Shown here in pieces: positions 11,571 through 59,117 of a stretch of DNA of 64,000 nt (positions are counted from its first letter, which is position 1; each line of letters starts with the position of its first letter). The notes under the pieces are model-generated. The model saw only the letters and a program-made list of their open reading frames with translations, had not been told where the DNA came from and ran no database searches. The DNA is from Neckera pumila (lineage: Eukaryota > Streptophyta > Bryopsida > Hypnales > Neckeraceae): assembly GCA_963969595.1 (NCBI GenBank), contig OZ018418.1, forward strand, positions 3,973,001 to 4,037,000, written 5' to 3'. The translations under genes and the position numbers were made by a program.

Positions 11571-11790
11571 TTTGCAATAACACCTCAAATTCCCTGGGAT
11601 GATATTTCGTGTTATCTTAGCACATCTTTGTGTTAAGGATGCTTACGCCTGGACTGCGCGTACAGCATGGCCCAATTTTGTGAATAGCAATATGGGCTGT
11701 CAAAATTTATATCTTTCAAATATTTTTTTTTCCTAATTTTTTTTTAAATGCCATATTTAACTACTTTTGGACTATTCAAAGTCCAGAATT
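11571..11790 (+). repeat. Left terminal inverted repeat of the giant element
   Basis: Contains the exact 30-bp match to the right end (11744-11773; ends TTAAATGCC and TTTTGGACT). It is preceded by a T-rich run and a weaker ATTCCCTGGGA block. The first palindrome half-sites begin directly inside it at about 11794. Confidence 0.7.
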
Positions 11791-11793
11791 TAA

Positions 11794-12000
11794 AATCTCC
11801 CGATGCATGGTGTTAGGGAATACACCGGGAGATTTTTGTACACAATTATGTTTATTTTTGTGAAGGCGTTGGAAGGCTCCCGGGTGGTCCATTGATGCAC
11901 AGCAATATGGATCTCAAGATATACATGAACTACAAATGTGAAGTACATAGCCTTTGAATGGCTACATGGTGTTTGTCAAAACATCGGGAGATATCCAGAT
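11794..12000. repeat. Subterminal palindrome half-sites, left end
   Basis: Degenerate or half copies of the CGGGAGATATCCCG family occur at about 11794-11805, 11825-11835 and 11984-12000. They lie just inside the left inverted repeat, as transposase-binding subterminal repeats often do. Confidence 0.55.
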
Positions 12001-12614
12001 ACATTGAAGTTCATTTTGTTGAGGGTGTTCACATGTCCCAAGAGGTCAATGAGAGCCCATGAACATGCATCTCAGGATTTACATAAAATGTAAATACGGA
12101 TCAGTATATAGCCTGTGATGCATAATGGTAGGCATAACTTTGGAAGATATCCAGATACCTTGAAGTTCAAGCACCTAAGTGTGCTGTGAAACCCCCGAGA
12201 GGTCAATTGCACTCAAACTTGTATGTCACGGACAATATGAACTTTGAATGATGCTCCATGTTTGAATGCAGGTTCCAAAGGTGGCAAGTGAAGATGAATA
12301 TTGACAACAGTAAGTGGCAATGAAAAAAAAGTCTTGCAACATTGTAGTAATCCCACAGGAGATCAAGTACAATAAAAGAAAGAATAGCAAAAGAAAAGAA
12401 CGTGGACATTTGCTACAACTACAACATGGGATTTGGAAGGTGCCCTTGAGGAATTGTAATAAGAACCGCACATTCTGATATTTTTGAATAAAATAAACCC
12501 ATCCTAGTCACAACAGCTTCCACTACCAGCACTAGTAACTTCTGTAAAAGACATAAAGAACCATTTATCAAAGAAATGAACTGTGTCATTATGAAGCCGA
12601 ACAAAATAAACCAT

Positions 12615-12680
12615 CGGGAAATATCCCGATAGCCCTGCCATGGTCACAGTGAACAAAGGAAAGCATCGGGAAATCTCCCG
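12615..12680. repeat. Two palindromes 3' of the transposase-like gene
   Basis: Near-perfect copies CGGGAAATATCCCG (12615-12628) and CGGGAAATCTCCCG (12667-12680), each preceded by CAT, lie 52 bp apart. They sit within about 140 bp past the 3' end of the minus-strand transposase-like gene. Confidence 0.85.
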
Positions 12681-12748
12681 GTAGTCGTGGTAGACCACGA
12701 GACGTTAGTCGATCAGGAGTTCACCTTGTTTGCCCTATTCAAATTCGC

Positions 12749-15700
12749 CTAGGCAGCCTCTCTGCTTTTCTTAGGAATAGTACGTGATTTTGGGTTCACT
12801 TTCTTGGACCAATTAGCGTACAATGCACAAGATGCGTCCACCCAAGTGGGAGGCCTGTTCTCCACAACCCATTTTTCGTACCAACAATTATGGTACATCA
12901 ATTCCAAGTTACTTTCAGAATTATCTGGTCGCCAATACTGGAGCATGAACTTTCCATTATTCTCATGTCCTTCCTCTCTGCAGACATTGGACAGTGCTCT
13001 TCCTTGCCAGATAGTACATACTAAGGGGTCCTCAAGTCTAAGCTGTACCCATGAACCCGGTCAAATATCAACCCAAGGATTAAAGCTTTCCCTTGGCGCC
13101 TCATTTGCGGGTCCGCAATAAGGTTCAAATTCTTCTTTTTCTGGAACCATGTCGACAGGGTTGATGGTCGGCCGCTGGCCAACGGATTCCTGCAACCTCC
13201 TACTGTACTTTGGCCAAAAGCCTTCCACCAATTTCGAAGGGCAGTTGGGAAGGGACTCCTTGAGCTCCCGCAACACACATTTCCAGTAATCAACATACGG
13301 CGCAAAGGCGGCCGCAAACCCCTTGCATTTGGACATTCTGTTTCGCCAATACTCAATGTACTTCTCGATTTCTAACAGAATCAAACCCTTGCTTAAGGTC
13401 GCTTTCCTTGCTGCCTCCACTGCCTTCTCTTGATTTCCCATGGCTTTCGCAACTTCGCTAACCCACATAGGCTTGAAAGGAACAGGCTTAGGGCAACCTC
13501 GAGGGAGTGTCGCATGACCCATGCGGTCTTTCTTCCACAGGCATCAAGAAGATGTATCTGATGGTAGCCACTGTGAATCTACTGCAGACTTTTTGTACTT
13601 CATGACGGGGATTCCATCTCTATCCACGTAGAACCGAAAAAGGTGCATCTCCCCTAAACCAATTAGTTTAGCCGTGCCACTGCACAGGTATCCCTTCACG
13701 AAGGACTTGAAATCCGCCACCTCTTGGATGAATTCGGGCATGAATGACAATTCCTGGGACTCCATGAACAACTTCATGAGGTCTGCGACAACAAATGTAT
13801 TCTTGCTCTTTAAAGCCTTCGAGAGGTGGCTAAAATACACATCAATATCTTTGTGAGTATGTCCAACTAAAAGGAAACCGACCTGAATTTCCTTGAAGAC
13901 TCCTCGCGCAATAAGCAAAGACAAGAACGCCATGAGGTACTGGTTCTTGTTATCCTTGGCGGAGTTGTCAAGCTGAAGATAGAGCTTGCTAGGAAGGGGA
14001 CTAGATCCACGTCGACCTTCCTGTGGAATCAATTTCAAGGCGTCTATACATTGAGATTTCCCTTTGAGTAGCGCGTCAAACATTGCATTTGCAGGTGGAT
14101 AGGGAAAGAGGTCGCCCGTCTCCCGAATTGGTGGACCTTCAAGTCGCCTAAATAGTCTAGCCACCAATGAAATGGTGAAGTTTGAGTCCCCCGGCCAGCA
14201 GGCTGGTGCATAATGCGCATACGCACCATCGGCATGACCATAAGCCACCATTCCAGTTATACTCATGGGAAGCTGACCCAAACCTTGTATAGCCTTGGTC
14301 GTCATCCGCATTCTTGGAAGAGCCGTCTTCCTTGTGTCCATCTTGTCATGAATAACGCACAATACCTCTTGAAGGTTCCTCCTTGATTCCTCACGGTATG
14401 AAGTATACAGGCAATGGCAGGATGCTTGATGATTAAGGTGTTCTGTTTGTTGCCTCATGAATTCCACGAAGTCCGAACTCCCTTTTGGTGATTTCAGAAA
14501 GAACTGCTGTAGTTCATCGTATTTCGTACACTTCGCAAAAGAGCTACCAACAGGCTTAATCGAGACGTTGTTGAAGTGCTCTTTCTTTATTCTACTAACC
14601 GTTGCTTGGCTCACTGGAGGAAGGCCATACTCCACATTTAACTGCGATTTCCAAAAAACAGAAGCACAAGCCGCAGAGGCAGTAACACGATGAGAACTGA
14701 TAAACGAAAAGGAGCAAAGAGAACAGCAGCAATGAGGACAATTGATTACAGGGATCAACAACAGGATATCTCCCGCTGAGTAGATGAGTGCATTCAAGTC
14801 CTATAGTGAAACGTATGAAGAGCTATTCAAATGAGAGAACCATCCAAATGAAGTACCCATGGAGTACTGTGTCCTGGAGATGTCCAGCAGAGGGAAAACT
14901 CTTAGTGAAGGCCCTATACAAAAGTTCAACGGGATATATCCCGTTGACGTAGTAGTCCGACAAACCCAACAATAATAAAAAACAACAGAAGGACAGTTCA
15001 TGGAACTACCTCATTGGCATTCGCATGAACGCGCTTCCAGTTGTTCCCAACAGGCAGGAACTTTAGAGTGTCCACTCTCCCATTTCCAATGCACCGCATT
15101 TGGTGCGGCATCTGGTCAGCAGTGCTGTCGATGATCGCTTTCATTGTACCAGTGACTTGCACCGTTTGAAGTCGAGGCCGCTTAACCCCTTTGTTCCCGT
15201 GCGTAGATGAAAGAATGCCTTCCTTGTACTTGTCAATGTAATTGTGATAGGTCAACTTCAGTATTCCGTGAATAATGTACCACACTGGGGCACAGACTTC
15301 CACTTCTTCCAGCGTAAAGTATTTCCGCTTCCTTGTCCACTCCATAGTATACAATTGTCCACCAACTACAATTCCATACTCTCGACACTCTTCAAATGGT
15401 TTCGAGAAGTATCTTTGCTTAACCTTCAGCGATTTCTCACGTTGATAAAGTTGGCAACAATGATTATTGCAGCAGTTCTGCGAGCTTATCTTCTGAATTT
15501 CGAAGTCCGTCATCTTCCGCGTGAACTGTGTCTCCTTTTCACTGAGGGAGGGTTGACGAACTATGAAACAATAGGGTGCCTTATGTCTTCCACCCAAATA
15601 GGCTAGCGGATCTGGTACATCAGGGAAGGTGAAGAAGTGGTCGACTATATCCTTCAAGCACTGACCACTAGGGAACCAGCAATTGGAAAGGGGCCACCGA

Positions 15701-15883
15701 GCATGGGTCATAATCATGTCTGAGTTACCACCAAAATCGTCAAGGACTGTCACACCTACGTAGCCTTCACCGAGGGTAGAACTCTGGAAATAATCATCCG
15801 CCCTCCAGCAAATAATTCGACCGGACGATTGAAGAACACCAAAGGAATCTAGTTCATGCATCTTGTCGTAGCACAGAAAGTAC
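12749..15883 (-). pseudogene. DUF7869-type transposase-like protein, main part
   Basis: Reading down from 15883: an exon of about 295 codons (to about 14998), an intron of roughly 300 bp holding two palindromes, then one frame from about 14700 to TAG/TAA near 12749. The core LQLDNSAKDNKN, then GVF.E...GFLLVGHTHKDIDVYFS (about 13810-13990), matches the DUF7869 region found in plant and animal transposon-borne proteins. Its Asp/His-rich motifs fit a nuclease-type active site, though that is family-level inference. TGA at 13544-13546 and TGA at 13061-13063 interrupt the frame, which continues in phase after both; each is CGA to TGA. The N-terminal part is at 19760-20221, separated by a nested element. 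Probably the giant element's own transposase. Confidence 0.6.
14763..14943. repeat. Two palindromes in the intron of the transposase-like gene
   Basis: AGGATATCTCCCG at 14763-14775 and CGGGATATATCCCG at 14930-14943, the latter with perfect CAA/TTG flanks, fall in the non-coding gap between the two main coding blocks of the minus-strand gene. Confidence 0.85.
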
Positions 15884-18800
15884 AAAATCCTTCTCTAAGG
15901 CCTTAATGAACCCTAAAGTGACTCGTGTATCGTTCCGCAGAGATCTCGGTGAAATTCTACTAAGTGGCCGGAATGCAGTGAATTGGTATCCCAAAACAAA
16001 CCCCAAGTACTAGTCTAGACCGAATCTAGCTCCAGTTATCCAAAACCGGAAACTCCTTTCCCGATTATATATCCCGTCTAGAGTATGTAACTATATGTAA
16101 TAAATTCGAGTTTAACCTCTGGACCAAGAGGGATCTGCAACTTTGGGCTTCAAGAAGGAAGCTTAACTCCTACCCTCCGAGTTTTAATGTGTCAGAAGAT
16201 CCACGATATAAACTTCAAAAGAAAACTTTGACAAGAACAACGAGAAAGAGACCGTCCTCACAACTAGACCGGATGGGCTACGCAGGCTAGCAGGTCACGC
16301 AAGAAATTCTGGATTCTCCTAACAATTACTATAATGACAGATTACAGGACAATCCACGGCCTAGGTAGAAAAGGGGCGTTAGGAATAAATGAGAGAGCTA
16401 TAATACTTCTTGACAAAAACAACTTCTTGACAAAAGCCAGCTCTAATCCAAGCAAGGAAATCCTATTGTATCATGTCTAACACGCAATCTCTCTAGGGAC
16501 TAGATACTTCTTGTATCCGGGTTTCACTTCCTCCTTACCCAAATCTGCACGATCTCACTGCTCTCACAATAACACAGACAAGTGCTAAAAGGTACAGCTC
16601 ACAATTGTAAATTGAAAAACTCCAACGGTATTTGCAGAAAATTGGGAATACAAAGTATGGAAAATGCTATCCGGATCAAACCTAAAATCCGCCTTTAAAT
16701 ACTAAACTACACCTCAAACTCAAAAAGCACATAAGGTTAAATACAGCTAATGGAATGACACGTTTCATTCTTAACTTCATGTCTAATTTAGGTAACTTAA
16801 GCTACAGTCAAAAAGCTCCCACTAAAAGTGGATCTTAGATCCTAAAAATCCAAAATCAACTTGAGTCCTGACTCCTTCTAAACTAAAAATATACCTTACA
16901 CATCTACTTGTCAAAATTAGGCATGCAGCCCTACAGTCACTATCAAAACCTTCACCTACTTCCTAATCTTCTTAACTGAAAAAAACCCCGCCTTTGCTGG
17001 TCCCTTCCGGGTCAAGGGCTTCTTTCTAGTCTGCGGTCTGGCAGTTTGTTTGGACCGGGCTTTGGCCTTCTCTCTGGCCGCCTTCGCTTTTGTCGCTCGG
17101 GTCTTTGCCAAGGCCTGGTCGGGATCCGAATAAGGTTCAGAATCCTGGTCGGAACCGCATTTCTCTTCATCATAGTCGGAATCCTCTTCTTCTTCCTCCT
17201 CCTCCTGAACCTTGATGAATTTCTTCTTGGCCGACTGTGGCTCAGAAACCTTTCTCTTATGCGGGACTAGAGCAGGCCTTGCTATCTTGCTCTGAGGTGT
17301 TGCATCTCCTCCAGCCGGTTTTCTGATTAGGCCCTTACTCGGTGAGCCGGATGAAGTGCCGCGACCGGCTCCAGTCTCTGTCTTCACCACGGACTGCATC
17401 AGGGTCGTCATCTTCCCTGCATCTTCAAACTGCACCTTCTTTCCAGGAGTCTTGGGAAAAAAACTTGGAGGGTGAGAGGGCACTGATCTGCTTCGCCTTG
17501 GCACTTTCCTCTGGAATGGACCCTCCTGGTCCGGTTGCCGGTTCCGGTCCTTGTGCCTTTGCTGGATCCGGTCCTGTCAACTTCGTGATCTCCAAATCAT
17601 CATCCTCCGGATCCGGGTCGGTGACTTTGGTGATCTCCACCTCAGTCTCCTGCACCTGACTTGTCTTGGCTTCCTGTTGCTCCTGTGGTACAGGTAGGTT
17701 TGGTTGCTCGTGAGAAGTCTCACCTTTACCCTTGTCCTCTGCTATTGGCTGCTGAACTGGTTCGTGATTTGGTTCTGGTCACGGTGTAGAATCACTTCGA
17801 GGGTTTACCTCGCGCATCACTTCTCACAACTGCTCCAGTGTGGACTCCATCTTCTTGTGATAAGTCACCATAGCCAGTATGAGCTTCTAATGCAGCTGTC
17901 GTCCTTCCACCATTACTTGTTGGTCAAACAAGTTAGCCTTGTTGACAACTTCACTCGGATGGGTGATGAATTCCCGGATTCGGGAAATGGTGTCTTGCGT
18001 CTGCTTGGAGAACGTTTTCTCCTTCTCCACCTCTTCTGTTTTCTGGCGCAACTCCTATTTAAGAGTGGCCACTTGGTCGGAAAGCTTTGCCAATTCTTCC
18101 TTGTTTTCACTCTTCTCCTTCTCTTGGGTAAGCCGTATTACCCGGGTTAAGGCTTGAGCTGGGTGGACGGTGCCCACTGTGGCGCAGATGGTCTGCAGCG
18201 CCCCTCGCTCTATCGCGTACCGGTTCCTGAAGTCGCTCAATTCTCGGGTGATTCTCTCTAGCGGCTCGTCTCTTCAGACCGGATCGGTATCCTTGGTCTG
18301 CTCTTTCTCTACCTGACCCTTTCCTCTCGTTTCCTCACCCTTATCATCATCCTCACTCTCATCCTCATCCTCACTCTCATCCTCATCATCCTCAGATTTG
18401 CTCTACTCATCCTCATTATTTCCCTCATCTGAGGATTCTTCCTCATTTCCGGTCTCAGGATCTAAGTCCGGAACTTCAAACTCTACCAGGGCAGCAGCGG
18501 CTTCATACTCTACCTCTTCCTCTTTTGTCATCACCCCCTCAGAATGATATAGATGAAACAGGAACGGACAGATGGTGGAAGGCTTGGCCTTCCAAATATT
18601 ATTCACCATTTTCAGTACTTGGTCCTGGATGACCACTCCCCAATCTACTTTCCGGTCTCCAGACAATGCACCAAATATTGTATTGGCTAATGTCAAAGAA
18701 ACTCGGCTTAGCCTTTCCGGGTTGAGAATGGCCAAGACATACTGTAACAACCGCTTCTCTCTCTGATTGATATAATCGGTGACTTAGAACCCGTCTTTCT

Positions 18801-19728
18801 TACTAATTGGGTTTCGGAACTTACCCACCGTATACTTGTGTTTCTGGGATGCACTTCCATCGCCTTCCTCGCCAAATAGATAGACCTTCCTCCACATGTC
18901 CGCCGTCCATCGCTTGGGCTTTGCACGGATTGTGGTCGCGGCGCGAGTTGGCGCTCCAGGCCTCAATTCCGCCACTATTGCTTTGCTTCTGAAGTCCCAT
19001 GGTCGGATCAGGAACCCAGCGCACCCCATTTGCTCCAGGTCTTCCTTCAGATCTGCCAGCTCCAGCTCCTCCTTAGGCAATCGTGGCGTCACATACCGGA
19101 GCAAGATGGTGGCTCCCCCACTCTGACTTGCAGCCATCTCTCCTTCCGTTAGGATGCGGCCGGTCTACTCTCGGAAATCGGAAAAAGAGTGGTCCTCACG
19201 CCTCTCTCTTTCTCTCTTTCAGCTATGCAAACCCTAACGCTAAGCTGGGATGCTAGCAGACCTCTCTCTTGCGCTTAATGTTCCTCAAGTACTCTCTTCC
19301 GCAGTCCGTCAACTCAAAACCCATATTGATGCTCAGACCGGAAACCAGTAATGGTGCACGTTGCTACAACTTTCAGTCAGGGTAGGAAAATGTAAGTGAC
19401 CAGTCTCTGGACAGATGGGGTTTAAGAGAGCCAATCCCAACTGCTCTTAATGATTCCCCTAATCCAGGCTTTGCCCGTTAAACCTGCCCATTTAAGATTT
19501 CCGTTTACTAATGATTAGAACGTTCCCGTAGTTCCCTAGGGTTAAGTAGGTCATCGTTGGATACCGGTTCCTGTTACCCCTTTCCTGATTCAAACTAGGC
19601 AAATTCGAACTCCAATTCCTTGTTTTCGGTACATTTGGTTAGCCTTTACATCGATTCCTGATCAGTCTACTTCCGGGTTCCGGTTCTAAACATTAAACGG
19701 TCTATAACTATCTTAAAATCAAAAAAAT
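15884..19728 (-). mobile_element. Unclassified element with gag-like protein, copy 2, nested
   Basis: It lies between two GTAC tetranucleotides (15880-15883 and 19729-19732) and splits the DUF7869-type gene: coding sequence resumes on both sides. On its own sense strand it begins with an A+T-rich run (ATTTTTTTG) and ends GCCTTAGAGAAGGATTTT. It is 3,845 bp long and has a ~590-bp leader, a decayed gag-like frame and a ~1.07-kb 3' region with a TATTTAAAGG box. No long terminal repeats or polymerase are seen. Being inside the giant element, it is younger than that insertion. Confidence 0.6.
16956..19137 (-). pseudogene. Gag-like protein of copy 2, decayed
   Basis: Starts MAASQSGG at 19137. The N-terminal domain matches copy 1 and copy 3 (LKEDLEQMGC.GFL.RPW, KRWTADMWRKVY, KF.NP.SKKDGF, TLANTIFGALSG...DWG, FLFHLYH). 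A Glu/Asp-rich linker (about 18300-18480), a helical region (about 17900-18250), a Pro/Glu-rich stretch and a very basic C-terminus (about 16956-17100) follow. Stops include TAA at 18784-18786 (from CAA) and TAG at 18403-18405, with several more beyond. The frame shifts at a seven-A run on the plus strand (17457-17463), after which the basic domain is read. A basic tail would suit nucleic-acid binding by a capsid-like protein; this is inference. Confidence 0.6.
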
Positions 19729-19759
19729 GTACTGCTAAGAAGAATATTATTTCTTCGTT

Positions 19760-20221
19760 TTAGTAAAAGTGGATTTTCAGGTTCCGATATCCCTCTAGGC
19801 CGATCCAATCTTCCTGAGGAATGAATGGGCTTCCGTCGACATACGGATCCGCAATGACCTTCACCACATCGGCTGCCCTCCACAACATTGTTCTGTTTTG
19901 AACTTCCCCCAGCGTACTCAGACCTCTCTGGTAGGGAGAAACCCTGATATGTTGAGCTTCTGGGACAACCAATGAAGGCCTTACGAGAACAAATACCCAC
20001 GGCTTGACCGGGATCAGCACACCCAGCCACTCGCCGTGAGGACGGGCCTCCACAACCGAATCCACTCCAACTTCTCCAAAATCCGGTAGGGAAAGCCTCA
20101 CTACGTCACCATCGCTTAGCGGAGCAGTTCTTGCAGTAGATTCTTGAGAACCAGCGTCCCCGGCTGATTCGCCAACATATGTAGTGATGGCATCATGAAA
20201 TAAATCAGAGTACGAATCCAT
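19760..20221 (-). pseudogene. N-terminal part of the DUF7869-type transposase-like gene
   Basis: ATG at 20219-20221 opens a 153-codon frame (MDSYSDLFHD...) ending at TAA 19760-19762. It lies upstream of, and on the same strand as, the main transposase-like block, separated from it only by the nested element. Past the stop the DNA encodes a hydrophobic run ending at the insertion point. The reading phase differs by one base from the YFLCYDK frame on the far side, so either a small intron or an indel is involved. The segment is mixed beta-like with an acidic N-terminus and no recognised motif. Palindromes lie about 400-560 bp upstream, in the presumed promoter. Confidence 0.45.
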
Positions 20222-20621
20222 TGTCTTTGACGCACTGAATCTAGGAACCTTATAGTGGCAGAAACGTAATGAAGAGTGAATCTGGAGACGAAGATTCCAG
20301 AATATCAGTCCACATTGTAATTATGATTGGACTTCGATAGGGAAAGTAGATATGTTGATTTATCCCTTGACCTAGTTATATGTGAAGTTTGCGCCGTTGG
20401 TCGAGGTGGAGTGGGGTTGCACTACTACGTTACAAAAAAAAGAATGAATTAGAGTACAAATGGAATATTGTCTTTCGGAATATGGAACTTCAGAACCCAA
20501 CGATCGACGAGATCGGAAGGTCACATCACAGAACAATTTTATCGATCGATTTGATGCAACGGTACATATTACCATGTACAGTATCCACTGTTGACCAATT
20601 GAAATGTTTTCATGGAAACAG

Positions 20622-20789
20622 CGGGATATCTCCCGCTGAGAACAATGGGATACCTCTCTCTGGGAACAACGGGATATCTCCCGCTGGGAGGAACAGGATA
20701 ATTCTCGCTGGAAACAACGGGATATCTCCCGCTGAGATCAACGGATGACTTCTATTTGTATGTTCTTAACAGTGGGATATTTCCTGATG
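20622..20789. repeat. Palindrome cluster upstream of the transposase-like gene
   Basis: Three perfect-core copies of CGGGATATCTCCCG (20622-20635, 20670-20683, 20718-20731) alternate with decayed copies near 20646-20661, 20694-20710 and 20773-20789, at roughly 24-bp steps. Most are followed by CTG(A/G)G. The cluster lies 5' of the minus-strand start codon at 20221, so a regulatory or transposase-binding role is plausible. Confidence 0.85.
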
Positions 20790-22340: not shown

Positions 22341-22358
22341 CAATGCTAGGGTTTCAAG

Positions 22359-22392
22359 GTTTAGGGTTTAGGGTTTAGGGTTAGGGTTTAGG
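22359..22392 (+). repeat. Interstitial telomere-like repeat, cluster 1
   Basis: About four and a half tandem copies of TTTAGGG with one shortened TTAGGG unit, followed by decaying variants. This is the plant-type telomere repeat. Confidence 0.85.
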
Positions 22393-22602
22393 ATTTCAAG
22401 ACTTCCAGTTTAAGGTTCGGGTTTCTACATTCAGGTTCATTGAGTTCAAGATTAAGGTTTTCTAACATATTCGGAACAATTGTAAACGTACTCCAGTTTA
22501 GGGTCAGTGGGTTTGTTTTGCTTAATAATGTGAACTTCACTAATTTTTGGTTGCTACATGGCTTGGTGTGATTTCTATTAAACTAAAAGCTTCAGTATTC
22601 CC

Positions 22603-22915: not shown

Positions 22916-22994
22916 ATTCATTTATAGAGATGACCGGCATGTAATTCCATTTTATTATTCTTTTCCTTCAATCTTCATAAGTTTTAAACTTTTG

Positions 22995-24318: not shown

Positions 24319-27300
24319 CACTACAAGGGAAAGGGGCCCTAATTGACAAGTTTATGACAAAGAAATGTCCGGTTTGACAACAGCTAGTTTTTCCAGAGTT
24401 TTCTTTGTCAAGTTGGTAATTTGCACTGTTTCTGTCAATTTTTCTGTCAATTTTTTGTGAAAGTCGTGAAGCTCAGTTGTAGTTACATGTGTCTTCAAAT
24501 TTTAGAAGACATTCATTACACAATTTATTGGCCTTCATTGGCCGACTGACAAGCAATTTGATGAAGTCATAGCTAGTGCAACCTATTGTTCATATTGGTC
24601 TTATTTTGGTCATTTAGAGAAATAAAAGGTTTACACTTGAGCATTTTAGAAATGCAGAAGCAGAGGCAATTCATGTATTTTTTGTAATACAATACAAGTT
24701 TATCATTTCCCTCTTGAAGCTCAAAAGCCACTATTTCCAAACACTACTTCCTGCCATGGACGATATTGTCCAGCAGCTAACAACGTAATAGTCTGAGGTT
24801 GCTTTCCATAGCGGCTTTTGAACAAGAGAGTGACTTTTGAGCACTGCACAAACAAATTGTCCTAAAATTCTTCTCCTGCTCCAAATTGACTTGAACAAAA
24901 AACACAAATACACCACATTTGCAGAGGACATCCTGACCGTCATGAAAATGTGCATTGAACGGGATACTATGGTGAATATCAAGGTCCTCACAGCACGCCA
25001 TCCCAATATTTGCATATACGAAGGGCAACTGAAATGCCTGACCTCGACTACAAATAGGGTTGCATTGACCTACACAGTCAAGTGTAGGCTTCATCTTCGT
25101 CATAGCTGCATTATCTTTGTCTTCGTCCCTCTTTGTCATTCAACTGCTACGACTTCAGCTCTCATGTCCAGATAGTTTTTTTCCATATCTGCCAACACTT
25201 TCCACATTTGTTACTCTACTGCATTGAAAGGGAAGCCAGGTCTTTCGGTTAGTATTTCATACTACCGTTCCCAACCACTTGGCAGTAATACCATTAGGCA
25301 TTTCTGATGGAACCTTGCTTTGATCAATTTACTTTCGAACATTCAAGAAAAGAAATAGTAATCACAGTCCACTGCAGAGCACAGGAACTCCAGTCGCCAT
25401 AACTAACCCCATCTGAGACGCTGCAAGTTACATCTGCATATAAATTGAAGACAATATTGATCACCGCTTCAGCTATTAACTTTTACATAATAAAATCATG
25501 GCTCCACATTAAAGTTGTACAGCAAGGCATATCAGAAACGCCATTCTTTGATGGACTCCAATACAACACACAATATCATCTTTGGCATCTGCAAACACAG
25601 CACACATTATAATAAGTTTGTACTCTTGTTGCTTTCATTCTTACATGTAACATGCTCTATAATAAGTTCCATAAAGTGCACTTCCATTGCACGGTAGGAA
25701 AGTGAACTCCCCCATATATTCTATCCATCCCAGCGTTACATCTTCACATGCAGTGCTACAATCATATGTTCTCAGAAGAGTTCATCGACGCAGAAGACAA
25801 ACTTCAGAAATGCTCACCCTCCATTCCATCTTCGGCACTGTCGCTGGAATAGTCATCATTTTCCAATCCTCTATTGGAATTTTTTTCAGTTCCACATCAC
25901 TGATTGGATCATGGGCATTGCACATCTAGTGTTCCTGATTTCTACGTCAATCTTTAGCTGCATCAAACTTGAAAGAAATGAAGCCGACAAACAATTCGTC
26001 CAAATCTGTAGATCCATCTATCACATCCATTTCTAATGGCGGACCTCCTTCACAATTCCTGAGAGAGATTGTTCACAAACGATTATACAACATTAGCATT
26101 AATGCCAAAGTCACTATAAGAAGACTGTCTTCAACGACTCTCCTACTTGTACGCCAGAGTCAGTAAGTTACAACTGCAAAATACTTCGACCATTTCAGGA
26201 ACCTAGAATTTGTCAATACTTCTGTCGGGTATACACAAATAGTTTCACTCACAAGATTACTCTGGCACTATGACTTTGAATTCATGATCCTCCTTATTTG
26301 AGGATGCAAGCAATGTAATCATCAAAATCTGCTTTGTTAAATATCAATACTTCAATTCATGAGCTGTTGGTCTCGAGAGAATGCTCTTTTGTGATCGCAT
26401 TTTGCCACTTCTACACTTCTGAGATGCCGAAGTGCACAGAAGCCAACTCCCACTCCATGATGAAAGAAACATGTAATATATGTATGCATGATACTTCAAA
26501 TAGAGAATACCTGAAAATTTTCGGAATCTGAAGAGGCTGAAGAAGTTTGTCTCTGCACCTTCGGAAGAAATACCCAATCAACGGGTAACACTTCCTCCGC
26601 TATTTCTCTCCCTTATCCACATCCTATCCATCCAATCCTCAGTCCCCACTCTTGCATTGACAATGGCCTTCTACCTGACTTCCAGACAAACAACAATCTC
26701 ATCATGCCTTCCAAATTGGCTCTACCATTGATATTGCTTTCAAATTTCCCCTCCACGTTGCAAAGATTGCATTCACACACGTGAAGAACATTTCAGTACG
26801 ACTTGAGAAATAACAGCAATGACAGTATGATACATTCCTGATATTAGGCAACCTACAACATGAGAGTTTGTTTGGAACTACCAAAATTAGACATATTATA
26901 TATCTCACCAACACTCACATATAAGTTCTCTGCCATTATAAAGCCTACAAACACTTTCAAAAAAGCTTATTAAGAGCAAATTCCTTACGACATCTACATG
27001 GAGTCCACATACATGCAATCTTTAAAATGAGAATCTCCTTTCCATCATAAATTCCAAAACAATACAGAGAATGTCGTCATTCCTCCTCAAATTGATGTCG
27101 ACAGACGTCTCCTTCTTCTTGACAAATGAAAACTGGTAGCATGTCAGCAACCGTACCCGAAAATGAAAAAAAAAAGGAACATTACCAACGAGAACGGCCT
27201 ACTGCGCTAAAGGCGTACTACTCCATTACACTCGAGATTATACTATAGCTCCTACTACCATTACTGTACCTCTCCAATGCCCTCTAGTTGTGTGGGTAAG

Positions 27301-28900: not shown

Positions 28901-28914
28901 TGCTCCTTTGCATT

Positions 28915-34350: not shown

Positions 34351-34399
34351 ATGATAAGCACAAACAAATCCTTAGGGCCTCATGGTCAAAATTGCCTAC

Positions 34400-42570: not shown

Positions 42571-42572
42571 GA

Positions 42573-45303
42573 ATGTACCAGAGTATGCCTCCCCCAAGCG
42601 TTTCCGGGAAAAAAAAAGAGAATTTTGTGCAGTGGAAGGAAGTGACGCAAGCGCCTGGTGATGGAGGGAACTTGGGGGTTGGCGGCTCCTCTATCAGCGC
42701 TGGAATAAAGAATGTTGTTCACACGCGAATTAGTCAAGTTCCGTTGTCAACGAATTCACAGTCGCGGCGTCTTATGCCCTCCGTCTGTGAAGGTAGACAT
42801 GCACAACCTCTTAGGACATCACGTGAAGGTCCTCAACATAGAATGATGGGGAAGGCCTTTTTGCAGACCGTGGAACGTGATTCACTTGAAGGAGCTACCG
42901 CGACTGTGGAAAGATTTCCTACTCAGGAACCTTTAGGTACGTGCATATGTGGATTGTAAAGTTACCCTTGTTCGTGGTCTCATCGGGTGCTAACGTTTTT
43001 GTGGAGTCAAAGAGGAAGACGTGTCGCATTCCCTGCATAGGGATATGACTTCTGGATCGCAGTCATGACATTTTGTTCATTGATTTGTCCTTTCAGCACT
43101 AATACACAATTGTGACAGTAGGTGTGGCATATAACCTGTCTGTAGATGTAGGCTCAAGGCAAATTATAGCAACACGTGGAAAGTCTCCAGCTCTGACGTC
43201 CAGTGTACAAACAGATGACCGCATCCGTAGAGGCCTATATACAGGGCCAGGTCAGGGGTTGAGGGTGACGTTGACAAGCCTAGCAGGTAAGCTGATTTTT
43301 CATTGAAGTGATAGACAATGTAGGTGTAGTCAAAGAATTTCTTGTAACCATTGAAACGGAAGTGCAGGATGCAGTCGTCAAAGTGCAACTCCACTACATC
43401 TGGACGTTCATTTGGAGGAACGTACTTCACTGTACGCACAATCAAAAACTGCTTTTCTGGAAGCTATGCACAATGGAAGTGGGGAAGAATTCGATGGTGG
43501 TATACAAGAAGAGGCAAGTAATTGAGGTCCTAGAATGAACGGAATTCAGAAAGTGTAGGCAGAAATTGCCTTGGTTTTTTCAAGCAACGTTATAGTGCAG
43601 TTGTGTATGTAGTTGTTCAATTGTAGAGTATAGTTTTATTTTAATTTCTGTGATGTCAAGGAGGGAAGGAGAGAACCTCACTGCCTCAGGCAACACGTAA
43701 GGTGAAATTCTTGGTTTTTCATGATCAAGGAGAATAGAAATTGTGGATGGACTGTGGAATTGGTGAGCGTCACCTTCTGGCATGTGTTACAATTGTACTG
43801 GGAACTGTAGGTATAACTTTAAATTCAAAGAAAGCCGTCAACATGCCTTCAGTGTAATAATGATGACAATATGAGACACTGACTAGTCTCACTGCCATTG
43901 TACGCTGTGTGGAATGGGTTTGCTAAATCTGCATGAGTAGTAAAAAGAGAGAGACAGATGAACTTCGGCAAATGCACATGCTGAATTTGTGATATGATGT
44001 TGTAGAATGATACGTACGAGTTTATGTTGTTTGTCATGAGGACTGTGCGATGAACTTGCAGGAGGACGAAGACATGATCGATCATATTCCCGAACATGCA
44101 TGGAGACCGGATCAAGGTGCGACATCTTCTTTCTACAACAATGACGAGGAACTTGAAGAGAATGCAAACAGTGAGGAGGATGAAGAACCCTTGTCGACTA
44201 CTGACAGTGCTGGAGAAGAATACGATGTCATCCCTGTGGACACAGAGGAGGAAGTAGAGATCTCGGAAATGGATAAGCGGAGGCAAAGGAGACACGAACA
44301 AGCCGTAAGGAGAAGAGAAGGTGATAAGCGGTTTTCTGAGGGCCTCCCCCGGAACTACCTCCTTGTTGATAAATACACAAAGGAGCCTTACGGTCCAGGT
44401 ATCGGAATGTGGAAGAAGGAGCTCATGCTCTTATCCCAGCAATTAGATCCCGCCATAGCAAACATAAACAGGCAACCGGAGGATGCTGTTAAAAAAATTG
44501 CAGACTGGATACAACACGCATGGCAATATAATAGGCCAATAAAATGGGAATGTGTGAAAGAGGTAATAGCTCGTGGGGTCAATCTGCAGCGGTCTGACTT
44601 ATGGAAGAGAATTCGCTTGAAGAAAGAGAAGCCAAAGGGAATGTCAGATCGGACTTGGCGGTCATTAGAACGGCAGTTGCAGAGCCCTGCCATGATAAAA
44701 AAGTTTCAGAATTGCAGCAAGGCTAATGCAAGCCGCCATAACTTTGGGAGGACCGGCCCTTCGGGTGAGGTGGGGGTGCGGGAGAGATTGCGTAAGAAGT
44801 TACAGAGGTCGCCTTCTCCAGACGAGGTGAGAGCAGAGATGGCCAGGCCTAAGGGTTACAGTGGGCGATCCAAGCATAGAGATGTGGACACTGTGATGCA
44901 TGGCAGTGGCAACACACCACTTATAGTGGTCAGCGGGCGCAGCACTCCTCTATCCCTTGAAGGAAATGTGGAGTGCTATACGGACGAAAACACTTATGAA
45001 GGTTCGCATGACGGAGTGGAAATGCATGATGGGGTCATGGGTGTCGCTGGACGAGGATTTTTGAACTTAGCTCCTTCAGAAGTGCAGTCACTGCCAGAAG
45101 ATCAAGTTGCGCAGCATCCTGCATTCATTCGCATACTGAAGCGTTTGGAGGCCCTGGAAAGTAGAGGAAGCAATTCCCCAACTGAAGATGCTGTTGCAAA
45201 GGACGGTAGCGTAATTATACCACAGACACAAGGAACACCAGAAGAAGTGCATGTAGAAGATGAGGTACGCAATATGGAGAGAATGAAAATGAATTGCATT
45301 TAG
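42573..45303 (+). CDS. TNPA-like protein with plant transposase (Ptta/En/Spm) region
   Basis: Three exons are visible: about 42573-42934 (donor GTACGTGC), about 43098-43285 (donor GTAAGC) and 44063-45303 (acceptor CAG before GAGGAC, stop TAG 45301-45303). The last exon opens with a very acidic region (about 80 residues) and a Lys/Arg helix (DKRRQRRHEQAVRRREGDKR). Next comes a W-rich helical segment (WIQHAWQYNRP..W) and the Ptta-like block MIKKFQNCSKANASRHNFGR, followed by G.SGEVGVRERLRKK. Such proteins bind subterminal repeats of CACTA elements and assist TNP2. The exon is uninterrupted, unlike the TNP2-type gene. Small exons between 43290 and 44060 may have been missed. Confidence 0.75.
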
Positions 45304-47021
45304 TAGATGAAGTATTTAATGTAGCAATTCCAAAATGAATTGTTATCCCTCTGAATCTATAGTCCTTATGAACACTGTGGATGGAGGCATGTTTAGCAAG
45401 GTATAAAAATTATAAAACCTTGTTGTGCATGAATGAAGCATTGTCATTGAGCTTTCATTATGGCTGAAATTGTCGTTGTGCACTAATTTAGGCGGCGGTT
45501 GTTAGAAACGCTTCTGACCAAGACAGCACTCTCCCAATTTGAAGACAAGGTCGACCGAAGAAGAATGCTACACTGCAAAAGGGAGGAGAAAAGGTAAACT
45601 AATCTTCCATTTTCTCTAAGAGGGCAGACACCTGAGGTGAGTATCTCAAAATGCGCAACTGACCTTGAACTGCCATGTTCACCCTGTGGATAGCTGTGAA
45701 TTGAGTTCGTTATTTATGTGGAAGAGATGCTTGAAGAACTGAACGTTGTTCCTTCAAGAAATTGGCATACAGTATCCTAGTGTCCTATTTTTTTGGTGTT
45801 TTGAAACCTCATGTCAATTGCCAAGAAGAAAATTTACAAATTTCAGCAGTGAATTAGAAGTAATGAGGCACAATAGCAATTAGTAGCGGTTTTGGGTTAC
45901 ATATCTTACTGGAAGTGTTCAGTGTTGTTCTGCAAGTGCTGTAGTAGAATTATGAGGTGAAGGTCCAATGTGGTACACGATGAACTCATGAGCACTTCAA
46001 TGTACATATGGTGTCGCCAAGAGAAATGCATAGGCAGCATAAGACGGTGGTTTTGAAGGTGGTTCCAATGTTGTGGTCCAGTGAAAAGAATATTGTTATT
46101 CCTCAAGCAACACCCTCTTTGTGCAAGCTCAAATGAAAATCATCTGACGTTGCAAATGGTGTGCGGATTGTGATTGTTAGGGAGGTCGTCACCAAGCAAT
46201 GGCACCAGGACCTCAGCACATGAATGAAGCGCTATGAAGCCATGGAGTGATGGAAGTCTTTAGTAGAGCATGGAGCCAACAGGAGTGTACATTTCTTGCA
46301 TGAGTACTTCGTGAAGGGTCTCTCTCAGTAGTTCACTACTTAGCACATAGGTGTTTGGCATTAATAGTGAGAAGTGGTTTGGGGTGCATATAGGAATACA
46401 GTACTGAAGAGTTTGAAATAGTAGCTGTACGTAGAGGGGTCACGTGTAAGTAGTTGTAGAGTTGATTTCTTTGGCACGTGAACACATTGCTTTTTTGCTA
46501 ACAATGAGCAAAACTTGAAGTCTATGTAAGTACGTATACAAAAATATATTATAGCATCCTTGCAGCAAGGTACATGCTTCACTAAAGAGTATTACTACAT
46601 CCGGATATCAATGAAGAATTGAACGGCTAAGATTGCATCCCCTGCAAAGCACCCATGAAGGCTTTATAGAGAAAAAATTAATATAACACAATCAGTCATT
46701 GGTCAACGTGGACGCACTTGAAAGAAAGAGAAGCATGTAGAAATTGCAAGGAAAGTGCAAGAAAGTGGTAAACAATTAATGAAGTTCAAGCGACTAATGG
46801 GAACAATTGTGAATGCTATTAGAAGATGAAAGTGGTGACGTGGATGCAAAATCCAGACTGACAAAGGGGGCACGATCTGAAGAAGCTGACATACTGAATT
46901 GACAGCCAAAATGACAAAACTCCGTCATATAACCATCCGAATCAGGTACTCCTAATTGACAGAGGAATTGACAAAATTACGTCAATTCCTTGTCAATTAG
47001 GACAGACTGTCTCTTGTAGTG
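45304..47021. other. Right non-coding part and subterminal region of the CACTA element
   Basis: No gene is seen. The last about 110 bp hold five or more AATTGACA/TGTCAATT words around 46900-47000, directly inside the CACTACAAG terminus. Confidence 0.6.
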
Positions 47022-50805: not shown

Positions 50806-51429
50806 ATCGGGAGATTGGCCAATAGTTTCACAGTACACATAGTACAACAAAGCAGCCGGGAACGAAACAAAGCGGTTTTAGTTGAACTGAAAACGAATAA
50901 ATGGAGAAAGAAACAGCGGGAGATCTCCCGATAAAATTGAAAAAAATAATAGAGTTTCGACCGAAATGTTGACACCGCGTTCATAAGATGAAAGCGCTTC
51001 CTCGTGCAAACCATAGACAGCACATGAAATTAGCATCAGGATATATCCCGATGTCTGACAGGGCATAACATGAATAAGGTGGAGAGAAGAGCAGCAGGAT
51101 TTCTCAAAATGCTCTTGTTCGAACATGACTGGTAAGAGAACTCGGGAAGGATTGCGTGAATAATGTCGATAAGAGTTGTATGCACTGGGGAGTGAGGACG
51201 GTCCGGTAAGAGACAAATCCAACGGGAGATCTCCCGATGATTTGAAGAATAAGTAATGATCTATGCAATAGCAGAGGAGAAACAATTATAATATGGAAGG
51301 TGTTGCTTATGCCGGCACCTACTGGACATACTCATCGGGAGAACTCCTGCTGAATATGGTAGACGGCCTAAATTGAGAAGTGATGTAGAGCAGGACAGCA
51401 TTGACGTTTAGCGAGAATAATCCCGATGA
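50806..51429. repeat. Palindrome cluster in intron 1 of the ParB/HAD gene
   Basis: Good copies are CGGGAGATCTCCCG at 50917-50930, CAGGATATATCCCG at 51037-51050 and CGGGAGATCTCCCG at 51223-51236. Decayed copies are at 50806-50816, 51096-51108, 51336-51349 and 51412-51426. All lie between donor 50553 and acceptor 51487. Confidence 0.85.
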
Positions 51430-52877
51430 AAACACATAGGACAGGATATGAGGTGGACTTCTGACCATTGTGCATGGCATTGCGCAGAGAAAATACATCG
51501 ATTGACCTGCCTGCAGACTTGTCACCCATCAAGCTGTACAAGTTTATCGACTCAGTGGTGCACACGTTCGAGTACATGGGCGAGAGCAATCCAAGAGCTG
51601 TGTTTTGATGCAACCAGAAAGTTACAATGTGGGGCCTTGAGTGGATGGACCAGGCCAAGGGTGTTGCAATCATATGCCCTAGGCTCTCGTTCGAAGGCAA
51701 GGCTCACGCCACAACAAGCTTAGACGTTGTGGAGCTTCAAGGACTAGATAACTCTACTGTCCTTGTCATTGTCCGAGAGATGGTTCCCAAGAAGTAGGAA
51801 GCACGGACCTACGGCCTCATCCTTGACTATGCCACCATAGATCTCCAGATGTGCGAGTCTATGACAATAAAGGGATTTCTAGACAAGCCAGACGGATCTC
51901 ATTCCTGGACACCAACGGAGATGTCCAACGAATGGGTCATTACAGACGACAGCCGTGGTGAGTCCAAAACGGACATAGTACCAGTCGTTGCTACTGCATC
52001 AACGCCTTCTGCCCCAAAGAAGCAGAGGAAGAGGAAAGCCATAGCGGGTGGGCCAGGAGATGAAATTGTGGAGGAAGCAGAGGAGAAGGGCAAGGGTAAG
52101 AAGAAAAAAAAGGCCACCCCACTGACTATTGTGCAGGCAGTGAAAATGACCGAGGCTGAGGTCAGTAAGCTCAAGCCCGGTGAAATAAAGGAGATCAACA
52201 AGTTGTACAACCAGGTTTTTAAGCCAATGTACAGATGGGACAAGAAGCCACTAGCCAATGCGAAGGGGGAATTCCTGCGGGTGCACTACAAGTTCCTCCA
52301 CAAGGCAGAAGCCGGGGATCTCGTATACAGAGCTATTGACCAGGATTGGCTCAAAGGGATTTAGAATAAGGTTCTTGTGGACAACGACTTCCACTCGGAG
52401 AACCGATATATAATCGTCTTGCCCTTGAAGAAAGGACTATACGGACCGAATAATCTAGTAGAGTTCTGGGACACGTGTCCGAGGAAAGAGAGTCTCACCA
52501 CCAAATCCCACTACTACATTATTGGTGGTCAACACACTGTTGAAGCGCACAAGGAGTTGATTGAGAAGAAACATATCAGTGAGGCGGATAAGGCCGACGC
52601 TTCCACGTTCAACATCATTCCCATATGGGTGTCGCATGAAACAAAGAAGAATGATATCGTTCACGTTTCGAGAGCTCACAACCAGAACCTCGCTGGTGAG
52701 CAGAAGGAGCAGAGATTTGCACAGCAGCTTGGTCATGCTCGTGTGAAGTGGAAAGACGTGGGGTCCTCGCACCTGTCATACGGAGGATGAGCGCACTCAG
52801 CAGCGTACCGTGTAAGTTTTACTGAACTTACGCCCGAGTTATGGTCGTACATTGTTTTCTTCCTTCCTGGAAATCAG

Positions 52878-53067
52878 CGAGAGATATCCCGATGACTGTC
52901 AATAGCGGGACATATCCCGTTGTCGACAGAATCAGAGTAATATTCCTACTAGGAGGGAGAGATACAGATGTTATGAAAATGCACTGATCTCTCGCTGGCA
53001 TTCAGCGGGAATTATCCCGTTCTTCACAACATAGCCCCGAATCAATCCAGCAACGGGATTTATCCCG
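52878..53067. repeat. Palindrome cluster in intron 2 of the ParB/HAD gene
   Basis: Four copies lie in a 332-bp intron: 52878-52891 (CGAGAGATATCCCG), 52906-52919 (CGGGACATATCCCG), 53006-53019 (CGGGAATTATCCCG) and 53054-53067 (CGGGATTTATCCCG). The arms CGGGA and TCCCG are conserved while the central four bases vary. Confidence 0.88.
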
Positions 53068-54689
53068 ATGACGAACACTTTCATTGTCTTCTTATTTCTC
53101 AGTAATCCCCAATATAACTCGCATTGTCGGCATTCATGTGTAGGGATTCTATAATGTGATGTCCTCAATCTTCACTGGGTTCAAGAATGCAGACAACCCA
53201 AATTTGAAAATCCCGCTACTCTTCATGGAGAAGGATGAAGACTTCAACCGCTGGATTCAGATTGACAAGGACTTTCTGGCCAGAAAGCTTCCTGACAGGA
53301 CCGGACCAAAATCAAAGGGTGTCCGTAAGCCACTGGCATACACCGACTTCAAGCCTTTGTGGGGATTGCGAGATGAGGACTTGAACTACTTGGCTAACCA
53401 AGTCGAGCAGGGAGTGGTGTGCATGAAGAAAACGGCTATCAACCTCGATATTGAAGGAATGTCAGTCACCCCAGTGGGGGTGGCAGCAGGTCGGGAGAAG
53501 AAGGTGAGGGCCATGAAGAACGAGCTCATGTGCCACTATAGGCAGTTCCCGCTTCTGAGCAAGAAGCCAGAGTACTCTCCCTACCCAGCAGAAGAATGGG
53601 AAGACTTTGTGGCTGCGAAGAAGATTATCCGGGAGCAAGTCGAGTGGTGGACGGATAAGAGTATGGCGACGAAGCTGGGCAAGGAGTGGCTAGAGGGTCA
53701 TACGAAGGCCCTGAACAAGACACACGATCCAAGCAACTGTCCAGAGGCGGTAAAGAAGATGTGGGAGATCTTCATGAATGCGCATACAAAGGAGATCCAG
53801 GAATATGTTGCCAAGGACTTCGGAAGCGACTATCTATGCAAGGTCATGGACGAGAAATGCTGGGACATCAGCAAGATTTTGGCAGAAGATTCCGTAAAGG
53901 CATGGCGAGGTGAAGCAAAGACCCACATGTATTTCTGGTTTCTCTTCGAAATGACCAGCCGCGGTGCTCGTGCTAAATTCCTGAAGAACCGGAATCTGAA
54001 TCGCGTATTCGATGCCATAGAGTATAAGGATACCGATCGACGCCTTGTGAGAGCCCGTTCACCAGAAGTACTTATAACGGATGGTGCTGGATTTCACGCA
54101 ATTCTAGCACACCTGGAGAAGCGGCGGCAGGACATGAAAGTCCGGCTCTGGGATTGGCATGTAATTCATTACATTCCGGAGAAAGTGGATGGCTTCCCCC
54201 CTCTAGTGACAGGATCGCATTTCACCATGTACTTGGTCTTGCTCTTTGCCTATGACGAAGTCCATGGTCCGACGAGCAGCTTCCACAATTTCTTTTCGAG
54301 TAAAATCGAGATGTCTGCTGTGTATTTCTCGAGAGAGTTGGATGAAGTGGACAAGATGTATAGGCAGTCGAATATGCCTTGGTTTTCCATTGCCGCAGCG
54401 ATTGAAATTTTCCTTAACCACATGACCGACAACATGGTCATTGTTAACGTTAACGGCGGTCCGGAAATTACTTCTCTTGCACTGGTAAGCCCTAATTCAT
54501 TTTCCTTCCCATTATTTTTTGTAACTCAATCAATTTCCAGTGCATTGACATTTGCTTCTACAATGCTATCAGGTCTCCTTGAATAAGGTTATCAAAGTCG
54601 TTTATGACTCTGAATCAGAGTCCAAGGCAATTTTGGTTGCCCGGCATATTTGGGAGCAATTGCATACTGCTCAATCCCTTTGTCAGGAG

Positions 54690-55782: not shown

Positions 55783-56984
55783 TTGCTTGAGACACCTGTT
55801 GTTCCATCGTTCGCGGAAATGGCGGATACCATTATGGTGGATACAATGGTGGACCTCACGCAAATGAGTCCGGATGCGGCTGAACCGAAGGTGAATCCAA
55901 TGATTGCTGTTCCACACCCGAGACGTACGCATGCTGACATGGTTTCCTTGAAGAGTAGGGTTAAGGATCTTTTGAATTTGCCAGCTTTTCATGCTAGACA
56001 GACGCGCCATTTGGCAAATAACAGCCGGTCCAAGTTTTCGGCCGTCTGGGAGGCGCACTCATTTTTTTATCACGACATTTTTCAGATAGCCTCTGACAGT
56101 GGACCGATGGAAACAGAGGAAAGGGCCGAAGGACAATGGGGTCGAAGGAGTGCGAAAGTCGATGAAGCAGAACGGCCGAGGAAGGAAAAAGCCATTGTGA
56201 CCAGTACTTCATGTGACACATTCCGTATTTCTAAGGGTTTCATTGAAGTTCTTTTTTCTTTTTCATGGACTTGTCTCTAATTGGGCTTTGCCGTACTTGT
56301 CTGCAGATTGTGGTGGACCTTCAACGAAGCAACCAAGCACATTGGAAAAGGTAGCTCGGCGAAAGTATTCTGTGGTCCTTGACTTGAATGGAGTGCTTCT
56401 TCACAGGTCATACGACTGTAATAAACCCCATGTTGAGCATCGCCTGGGTGTCACCACGTTTCTTAATTGGCTGCGTTGTAGAGCGGATGTTGCATTCTGG
56501 AGTAGTGTTACTCCAAAGAACATGGACAATTTGTTGGACATTGTCCTCGCGGATTGTTCCTTCGGCCGTCGAGGTGTCATTTGTCTGTGTCAAGGGGCAT
56601 GCACGAAGTCCACGTACAGGGCCCCATCTGCACCCAATAAGCCGATCTTCCTGAAAGAGCTGACGACATTTGCAAACATGGCCAGTTTGTCCGCATTGGA
56701 TAACATTCTTCTCATTGACGACAGTCCAGAAAAGAACATCTTGAACGATCCTTGTAACGCTGTTTTTCCTCAGTCCTTTCGCGGTCAGCTGCTCGACAAC
56801 TACCTCTGCATGCAGTTGATGCCGTGGCTTGATGGCCTCCTTCTTTCGATGAGGCGGTGCCGGTGTATGTGAAGGCGAATCCCCTTCCAAGCGGGCAGAA
56901 TGCAGTGGATCCAGAATCCACATTGGGCTGGGGAATCATTACCGGAATTCAGCGTCATTGATTCCTGTTGGCATGGGGCTTCAT

Positions 56985-57871: not shown

Positions 57872-57937
57872 TTCTTTAGAAATTTTGTCCTCCTCTGTCT
57901 GACGAGTTAACTTCCTTGCTATGTTCTGATTGTGCAG

Positions 57938-58420
57938 AAGGCGGCTATCCTTGTTCTTACAGGTGATTTATGCGTTGAGGGTGGTGTTCTGGATCTTCCG
58001 GAAGTAATTGACGTTCCCTCTGGTTTCCATGACTTCCTTAGTCAGTTGCTTGAACGGGCTCACTGTGGGTTGTATTCCTCCATGCATTTGTCTACTTTGG
58101 AGGTGCTTATGCGGCGTCTTCTCCCACGAAAGACTTGGAGAGGTTTTCATTTTTTTGCCGGTTTGAACATTCCTAACAAGAATAATCCTTATCCACCCCG
58201 TGGGGCATTACTAAACTGGATCTTAGGTAGCCCTAGACTGCGCAACATTTTTTTGGATCAAACTATTGCAGTACTTCAGATAGATCCTCTTGAATGGCCA
58301 CGTTCTCATTTGATAGGTCCCTCTGTAGACGTGAGGGATGATATTGATCTCCTGAAATTAGAAGATCCATGGTATGTACGGAAGGAGCTACTTATAGTTG
58401 GGAATTCTGTTACGCATTAG
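57938..58420 (+). CDS. Second, degenerate HAD/FCP1-like exon
   Basis: Begins after an acceptor (TTGTGCAG) and is open for 160 codons to TAG 58418-58420. It aligns by eye with the FCP1-like exon at 56307-56961: ILVLTGDLCVEG against VVLDLNGVLL, FHDFLSQLLE and LYSSMHLSTL against the WSS motif II segment, and RNIFLDQTIAVLQ with LEWPRSHL against the IDDSPEKN segment. The first catalytic Asp of motif I is replaced and the motif III double Asp is reduced to one, so phosphatase activity is unlikely. It may be the last exon of the same gene or part of a tandem paralogue; no start codon or earlier exon of its own was found. Confidence 0.5.
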   Translation, partial: KAAILVLTGDLCVEGGVLDLPEVIDVPSGFHDFLSQLLERAHCGLYSSMHLSTLEVLMRRLLPRKTWRGFHFFAGLNIPNKNNPYPPRGALLNWILGSPRLRNIFLDQTIAVLQIDPLEWPRSHLIGPSVDVRDDIDLLKLEDPWYVRKELLIVGNSVTH

Positions 58421-58606
58421 TCAATGTCAGTAGTTTAGATACTATAGGGATTGCCTTTCTTTCTTTTCGTGGGCAACTTCTTGATTGTGACCTTCTTTAT
58501 TGGTGTTAATAAAATGTGGTGACCCTTCTTCACCTTTTCTTTACTTTCAAGTTCCATTCCACCGTGCCAACAGTCCTCTTGTATCGTAAGTTTGAATGCG
58601 GGAATT

Positions 58607-58946
58607 ACACCGGGAGAATTCCGGATCCTTATTCTGCAGGGAGATACTAATGGGTTAGACAGTGCTTGCTTACTAGTCTTTGTAATAATCTAAGTTGAAT
58701 GATATTTGTTTTCATTGTTTTCTTGCAACACTTTAGATCCCAAAGTCTGGTATATGCACTACAGCGGCAACTTTCCCGATGAATCTTCTCTACTGTTAGG
58801 TAGAATTAATGTACTATGGGTGAAATATCTTAGTTATTATGTTTCTTTGTCCTCTTCTTGGGTATGAACATGGTCTACTTCATTCTAATCTTCCCACTTT
58901 CATAGGCATTGCGATCTTCAAAACCAATACAACGGGAGTTCTCCCA
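58607..58946. repeat. Subterminal palindromes, right end
   Basis: CCGGGAGAATTCCGG-type copy at 58610-58624, a half copy near 58765-58780, and CGGGAGTTCTCCCA at 58933-58946, ending 38 bp before the exact inverted-repeat block. Confidence 0.7.
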
Positions 58947-58959
58947 ATGTAGTCTCCCA

Positions 58960-59117
58960 GGACATAGTCTAAAATTACTCCTAAAGTCCAAAAGTAGTTA
59001 AATATGGCATTTAAGTTAAATTTTTTTTTTTTGTAATGACGTAGCATAGTCTTGGCCACATCAGCCAGCAATTATCCTGCGTTTTTTGCGATCTGGGAAT
59101 GCATATTAACTTGCAAT
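58960..59117 (-). repeat. Right terminal inverted repeat of the giant element
   Basis: Contains 58985-59014, the exact inverse of 11744-11773, then an A/T run and, further out, a GGGAAT...TTGCAA block comparable with 11571-11595. The outermost boundary is uncertain. Confidence 0.68.

Follow-up and report, generated by a model that had tools for sequence, protein, structure and literature searches.

A giant transposon of the moss Neckera pumila with a DUF7869 transposase-like gene, a ParB-like gene and its own family of palindromes

The stretch of 64,000 nucleotides of Neckera pumila DNA analysed here (contig OZ018418.1, positions 3,973,001 to 4,037,000; hereafter the window) contains one cut-and-paste transposon of about 19-20 kb, bounded by terminal inverted repeats (TIRs) and interrupted by later insertions. 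Inside its TIRs lie two gene units that are transcribed divergently, one encoding a DUF7869 protein and the other a ParB-like protein whose C-terminal part is conserved, and a family of 20-bp palindromes is confined to the element's own DNA. We favour, at a probability of roughly 0.55, a reading in which the DUF7869 protein would cut at the TIRs and the ParB-like protein would bind the palindromes as a self-tag.

The ends of the element were resolved by means of other copies in the host genome (339.5 Mb, 18 contigs). An earlier note on this DNA had reported an exact 30-bp inverted match bracketing 47 kb, which is present in the 64-kb window at 11744-11773 and 58985-59014, and comparison with the other copies divides it into a 4-bp target site duplication, TTAA (in the window copy itself a palindrome), and a 26-bp TIR. 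The note was right in describing a bounded element, but the limits it gave, 11571-59117, were too wide: the true span is 11748-59010, or about 20.6 kb after subtraction of two large insertions. A search of the host genome with the 26-bp TIR, allowing 3 mismatches, returned 642 forward and 604 reverse matches (1,246 in total), and 0 for the control, the same pattern read backwards; the match is thus a dispersed repeat, which the note had feared, but one dispersed as element ends, as the pairing of the matches shows. The neighbours of 100 of the 1,246 matches, all of them exact, were analysed, and among the matches listed 36 neighbours lie less than 60 kb apart, including 31 convergent ones at 14-33 kb (inverted pairs 15-30 kb apart had been proposed as a check), 22 of these at 18.4-21.1 kb; the remaining 5 of the 36 have other orientations, one of them at 17.1 kb. 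In each of the 8 convergent pairs found in a sample of 30 loci, the same 4 bases flank the two ends and the identity never extends further; mispaired ends agreed in 0 of 56 cases. The duplications of these other copies vary in sequence. piggyBac, Kolobok and Sola3 are TTAA-specific superfamilies and were dropped as candidates, given that the 4-bp duplications vary among copies. Paired TIRs bounding many copies and a target duplication of fixed length (4 bp) are both features of the TIR (DDE-type) cut-and-paste class, and both are seen here.

Two related elements lying side by side, with shared palindromes that reflect their relatedness, might be suggested by the separation of the two gene units by a 22.7-kb CACTA element. 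We consider this excluded for practical purposes, because of the pairing of convergent ends (18.4-21.1 kb apart in 22 of 31 pairs among the matches listed) with their 4-bp duplications, the unlike ends, and a full-length copy. The inner sequences differ between the two ends in 8/8 pairs, each having one DUF7869-side and one ParB-side end, so that halves with their own pairs of termini, named beforehand as the result that would overturn a single element, were not what was found. A single copy (G000:C3:8458072), 18,879 bp long with TTTT at either side, holds both halves, as the earlier estimate of a single transposon of about 19 kb implied: about 15 kb of it align collinearly with the window from 59010 to 11746, it lacks both the CACTA element (24319-47021) and the insertion at about 15864-19791, and the non-aligning rest is mostly mid-element. 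Inner termini are absent from the window, as had been noted: there is no third TIR copy, the closest other sequence differing at 8 positions. Three complete two-gene relatives, described below, also argue against two elements. A 560-bp segment (window 22985-23545) lies at a different place in the 18,879-bp copy and is probably a small mobile repeat. Of the 30 genomic ends sampled, six (L031, L034, L037, L048, L059 and L060) carry the 26-bp TIR without a mismatch but differ in their interior from the compared copy, which they match over 32-98 bp only; related families therefore share the TIR, and these six may belong to other families or to non-autonomous ones that use the same transposase.

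The palindromes have the form CANCGGGA-KATM-TCCCGNTG (20 bp). That the family occurs only within 11571-59117 was already stated in the earlier note, and it does so: all 39 occurrences of the half-site CANCGGGA in the whole window fall there, whereas 100 first-order Markov control sequences averaged 4.36 and never had more than 9. At least 3 of the 39 (29084, 49379, 49466) are without a palindrome and look like chance occurrences. Allowing 3 mismatches, the 20,637 bp that are the element's own hold 25 palindromes, the nested insertions (26,634 bp) none and the DNA outside the element (16,729 bp) none; raising the limit to 4 mismatches gives 29, including one (37717) within the nested CACTA element, and each of 15 control sequences had 0 or 1. 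The sites lie upstream of both genes, in GT-AG introns, near the ends and mid-element, and two (55682, 55766) fall in an open reading frame (ORF). Elsewhere in the genome, too, the palindromes stop at the border: at 30 genomic ends (up to 3 mismatches; both ends of one element, and the possibly duplicated copies L054 and L055, counted separately), 1,526 bp inside held 84 palindromes and 112 half-sites, versus 0 and 0 in 1,500 bp outside. At least one palindrome lies within 1.5 kb at 27 of the 30 ends, and none in L037, L048 and L060.

The first gene matches DUF7869 in Pfam (E 1.1e-43), and a protein search returned 35 relatives, of which the named close ones are from mosses; the N-terminal part was recognised by eye against the moss proteins P0004 and P0007. 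In the window the gene is split by the insertion of about 3.9 kb at approximately 15864-19791, exon 2 runs from 14641, and there is an in-frame TGA at 13544-13546; the 18,879-bp copy has uninterrupted counterpart ORFs. A transposase of the DDE class would have an RNase H fold with conserved acidic residues; an RNase H-like fold was predicted for a relative and is the predicted fold of this protein also, a search of PDB sequences with the DUF7869 exon gave no match, and we infer that the protein is the transposase.

The ParB-like part of the second gene contains in-frame stops in the window, including a TAG at 52362-52364. It has a dN/dS (ratio of nonsynonymous to synonymous substitution rates) of 0.12 over 330 codons, and the constraint on this gene equals that on the DUF7869 exon. 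The joined ParB-like protein gave no match in a protein search, a PDB sequence search with the ParB-like piece gave a single weak one (E 1.4), and a structure predicted from the single sequence had a pLDDT (predicted local distance difference test) of 33.5, too low to use. The C-terminal exon has 96 matches in the host genome and dN/dS values of 0.18 and 0.23 in two comparisons; Pfam returned nothing better than E 0.1 for it, nor for P0036 or P0037. It was suspected of being a methyltransferase on a weak motif likeness, and this found no support: no N4C/N6A motifs were recognised in the exon, and hhalign and alignment scores were at the level of shuffled sequences.

A scan of prokaryote genomes with DUF7869 yielded nine loci, eight of them in bins assigned to Trichormus and one in an Arcticimaribacter bin. 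These loci probably sit in mis-binned eukaryotic contigs, because their genes look intron-split and the named family members found are eukaryotic; a plant host such as Azolla would be our guess. The reference bacterial bin labelled Trichormus (G001) includes several eukaryotic-looking transposon contigs, probably contamination of a public bin. Three of the loci hold complete two-gene elements in divergent order with TIRs of about 34 bp (L025, 3147-10951; L027, 391-8114; L015, 177-6220); a duplication, AACA, was seen by eye in L027, and none was clear in L025 or L015. The accessory gene of the relatives combines a ParB-like motif with the methyltransferase motifs DIPYG and LDLFSGTG (SGTS in L015), and Pfam N6_N4_Mtase was matched at E 4.1e-8 in L011 and 8.6e-8 in L008. 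Exact inverted repeats (10-base arms, spacer 0-4) occur at least once in 8 of the 9 loci and not in L015, whereas 10 Markov controls per locus averaged 0 to 0.2; in L008, L011 and L016 a part of these repeats is AT-rich or belongs to a different kind, and a family-type palindrome is left in all eight. TCGATGC-3-GCATCGA is the palindrome of most Trichormus-bin loci, whereas L009 has ATCCGATGC and L016 has CTCGATTACGCGTAATCGAG, both quite unlike the other loci. The palindromes of L025 and L027 lie between the two genes, and in L016 one lies inside the DUF7869 match, with others on either side of it. Viral contigs held no relatives of P0001, the ParB exon, the DUF7869 alignment or the relatives' ParB part and 0 matches to the TIR pattern; no relatives of P0036 were found in phages and none of the ParB exon in genome contigs. 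The palindrome pattern occurred in 7 viral contigs, at one site apiece, which we take as chance.

A 4-bp target site duplication is part of the definition of the Sola superfamily (Sola-1), and 8/8 pairs have one. Otherwise the window element is likened to Sola-1 by its layout. The earlier note knew of no element type to match this one, but a giant Sola-1 element of Ectocarpus with a like layout has been published, Sola1-1_Ec32, 21.5 kb long and with a ParB-methyltransferase gene; its accessory protein of 1104 aa has a ParB-like domain and a predicted N4C/N6A methyltransferase domain, and the ParB-methyltransferase proteins of algal transposons were proposed to bind and modify their own element (passages of PMC12477816). 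Those passages name no binding sites, and the main text of that paper never uses the word stem "palindrom". As far as these passages describe them, Sola1-1_Ec32 and the window element are both giant DNA transposons with a ParB-like accessory gene opposite in strand to the transposase, and they differ in the methyltransferase domain, the C-terminal exon of the window having no recognised motif. The same holds for ParB-carrying giant algal transposons at large: the window gene, too, lies opposite to the transposase and within the TIRs, but no N4C/N6A motifs like those of the relatives L008 and L011 are recognised in its protein. The ParB-methyltransferase proteins of green and red algae belong to the same proposed accessory class, a likeness drawn from their description in these passages. 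L025, L027 and L015 share the DUF7869 gene and the divergent ParB-like gene between TIRs, but measure 6.0-7.8 kb, have another palindrome sequence and carry recognisable methyltransferase motifs. Bacterial ParB-parS likewise joins a ParB-like domain with repeated short palindromes, but in the window element neither ParA nor a partition role is seen, the palindromes are far more numerous and of another sequence, and the homology of the protein rests on a short motif. No literature on DUF7869 was found, nor, among the papers listed and judged by title and the start of the abstract, any other description of ParB-carrying elements or of such Sola or moss elements, in a collection that holds few subscription papers. 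The transposase/ParB layout is hence already known from Ectocarpus, and the palindromes as candidate self-recognition sites would be the new part.

Under the favoured self-tag reading, the DUF7869 protein would act as transposase at the TIRs and the ParB-like protein would recognise the 20-bp palindromes in promoters, introns and ends, allowing the element to recognise, coat or mark its own DNA. In relatives with methyltransferase motifs the accessory protein may additionally methylate the element. In the window element its action may be limited to binding and spreading, with possible effects such as a check on host silencing, adjustment of the two promoters or assistance in joining ends that lie 19 kb apart. 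We infer that the ParB-like protein reads the palindromes because its gene co-occurs with element-specific palindromes here and in distant elements, and because its constraint matches that on the DUF7869 exon. Several points weigh against this: the ParB homology depends on one short motif (profile match to the relatives over 26 columns, E 0.00077, probability 25%, from one comparison and with no shuffled control), Pfam found no ParB domain in the protein, the PHROGs match to ParB-like proteins was weak (E 0.043), and the C-terminal exon could not be tied to the relatives' methyltransferase.

The palindromes might instead be binding sites of the DUF7869 transposase, with another job for the ParB-like protein. 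En/Spm-type elements have subterminal repeats as transposase binding sites, and the palindromes within 1.5 kb of 27/30 genomic ends resemble such an arrangement; we regard this as unlikely, since many window palindromes lie in introns and mid-element, and those of the Trichormus-bin loci sit either between the two genes or ahead of the DUF7869 gene, away from the TIRs. Slightly less likely still are host-factor sites or transcript hairpins, serving regulation or as silencing targets, with no reader encoded by the element: transcribed palindromic DNA can fold, and sites precede both genes and also lie in introns, but the palindromes differ in sequence among relatives and are found within the element while its flanks have none, observations that favour a reader encoded by the element. 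A broader proposal is more tentative than the self-tag reading of this one element, and we would put it somewhat below even odds: eukaryotic giant transposons might tag themselves through a ParB-like protein and dozens of lineage-specific palindromes that co-evolved with it, here by binding without methylation. The palindromes offer candidate sites for the published idea of self-binding by ParB-methyltransferases (as given in the passages of PMC12477816). As they end at the element border (30 sampled ends) and differ in distant elements, the idea of self-recognition becomes testable, and the transposase/ParB layout is extended to a host in which the transposase-like protein has its named close relatives among mosses.

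Table 1. Features of the transposon and its nested insertions, in window coordinates.
Feature	Position	Strand	Remarks
Left 4-bp target site duplication, TTAA	11744..11747	none	4-bp duplications in 8/8 other copies
Left 26-bp TIR, DUF7869 side	11748..11773	+	recurs in host genome
Left subterminal palindromes (11982, 12612, 12664)	11982..12683	none	
DUF7869 transposase-like gene	12713..20221	-	start ~20221 and end ~12713, by eye
DUF7869 gene intron with palindromes (14759, 14927)	14642..15009	-	GT..AG borders
Nested insertion with gag-like ORFs, ~3.9 kb	15864..19791 (approximate)	-	missing from genomic copy
Palindrome cluster (20619, 20667, 20715, 20770), upstream of DUF7869 gene	20619..20789	none	
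Nested CACTA element (tnp2, DUF4218)	24319..47021	-	target site duplication TAT; 22.7 kb, mid-transposon
Palindrome cluster (50914, 51034, 51220, 51333), upstream of ParB-like gene	50914..51352	none	
ParB-like part of divergent gene	51474..52811	+	YYIIGGQHTVEAHKEL motif; start by eye
Intron with four palindromes (52875, 52903, 53003, 53051)	52812..53143	+	GT..AG borders
C-terminal exon of ParB-like gene, no domain recognised	53144..54484	+	P0036 64%, P0037 50%
FCP1/NIF-like phosphatase domain in ORF 56201-56872	56369..56839	+	Pfam NIF E 1.9e-12
ORF, function not assigned	57911..58420	+	common to window and genomic copy
Right 26-bp TIR, ParB side	58985..59010	-	recurs in host genome
Right 4-bp target site duplication, TTAA	59011..59014	none	pairs with 11744..11747

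The ORF with the FCP1/NIF-like domain, which carries a DLNGVL motif and is perhaps a captured host gene, is present in the genomic copy too and is under weaker constraint (dN/dS 0.46 across the whole ORF). In the nested CACTA element a DUF4216 match remained below its cut-off. Gag-like ORFs at 8829-10484 resemble, by eye, those at 16956-19164 in the 3.9-kb insertion, and DNA near the former (8560-9118) is repeated at 63422-64000. AT-rich dispersed repeats lie at 22985-23545, 4016-4732 and 47924-48910, and the AT-rich middle of the element contains telomere-like TTTAGGG runs at 22340-22400 and 23597-23660.
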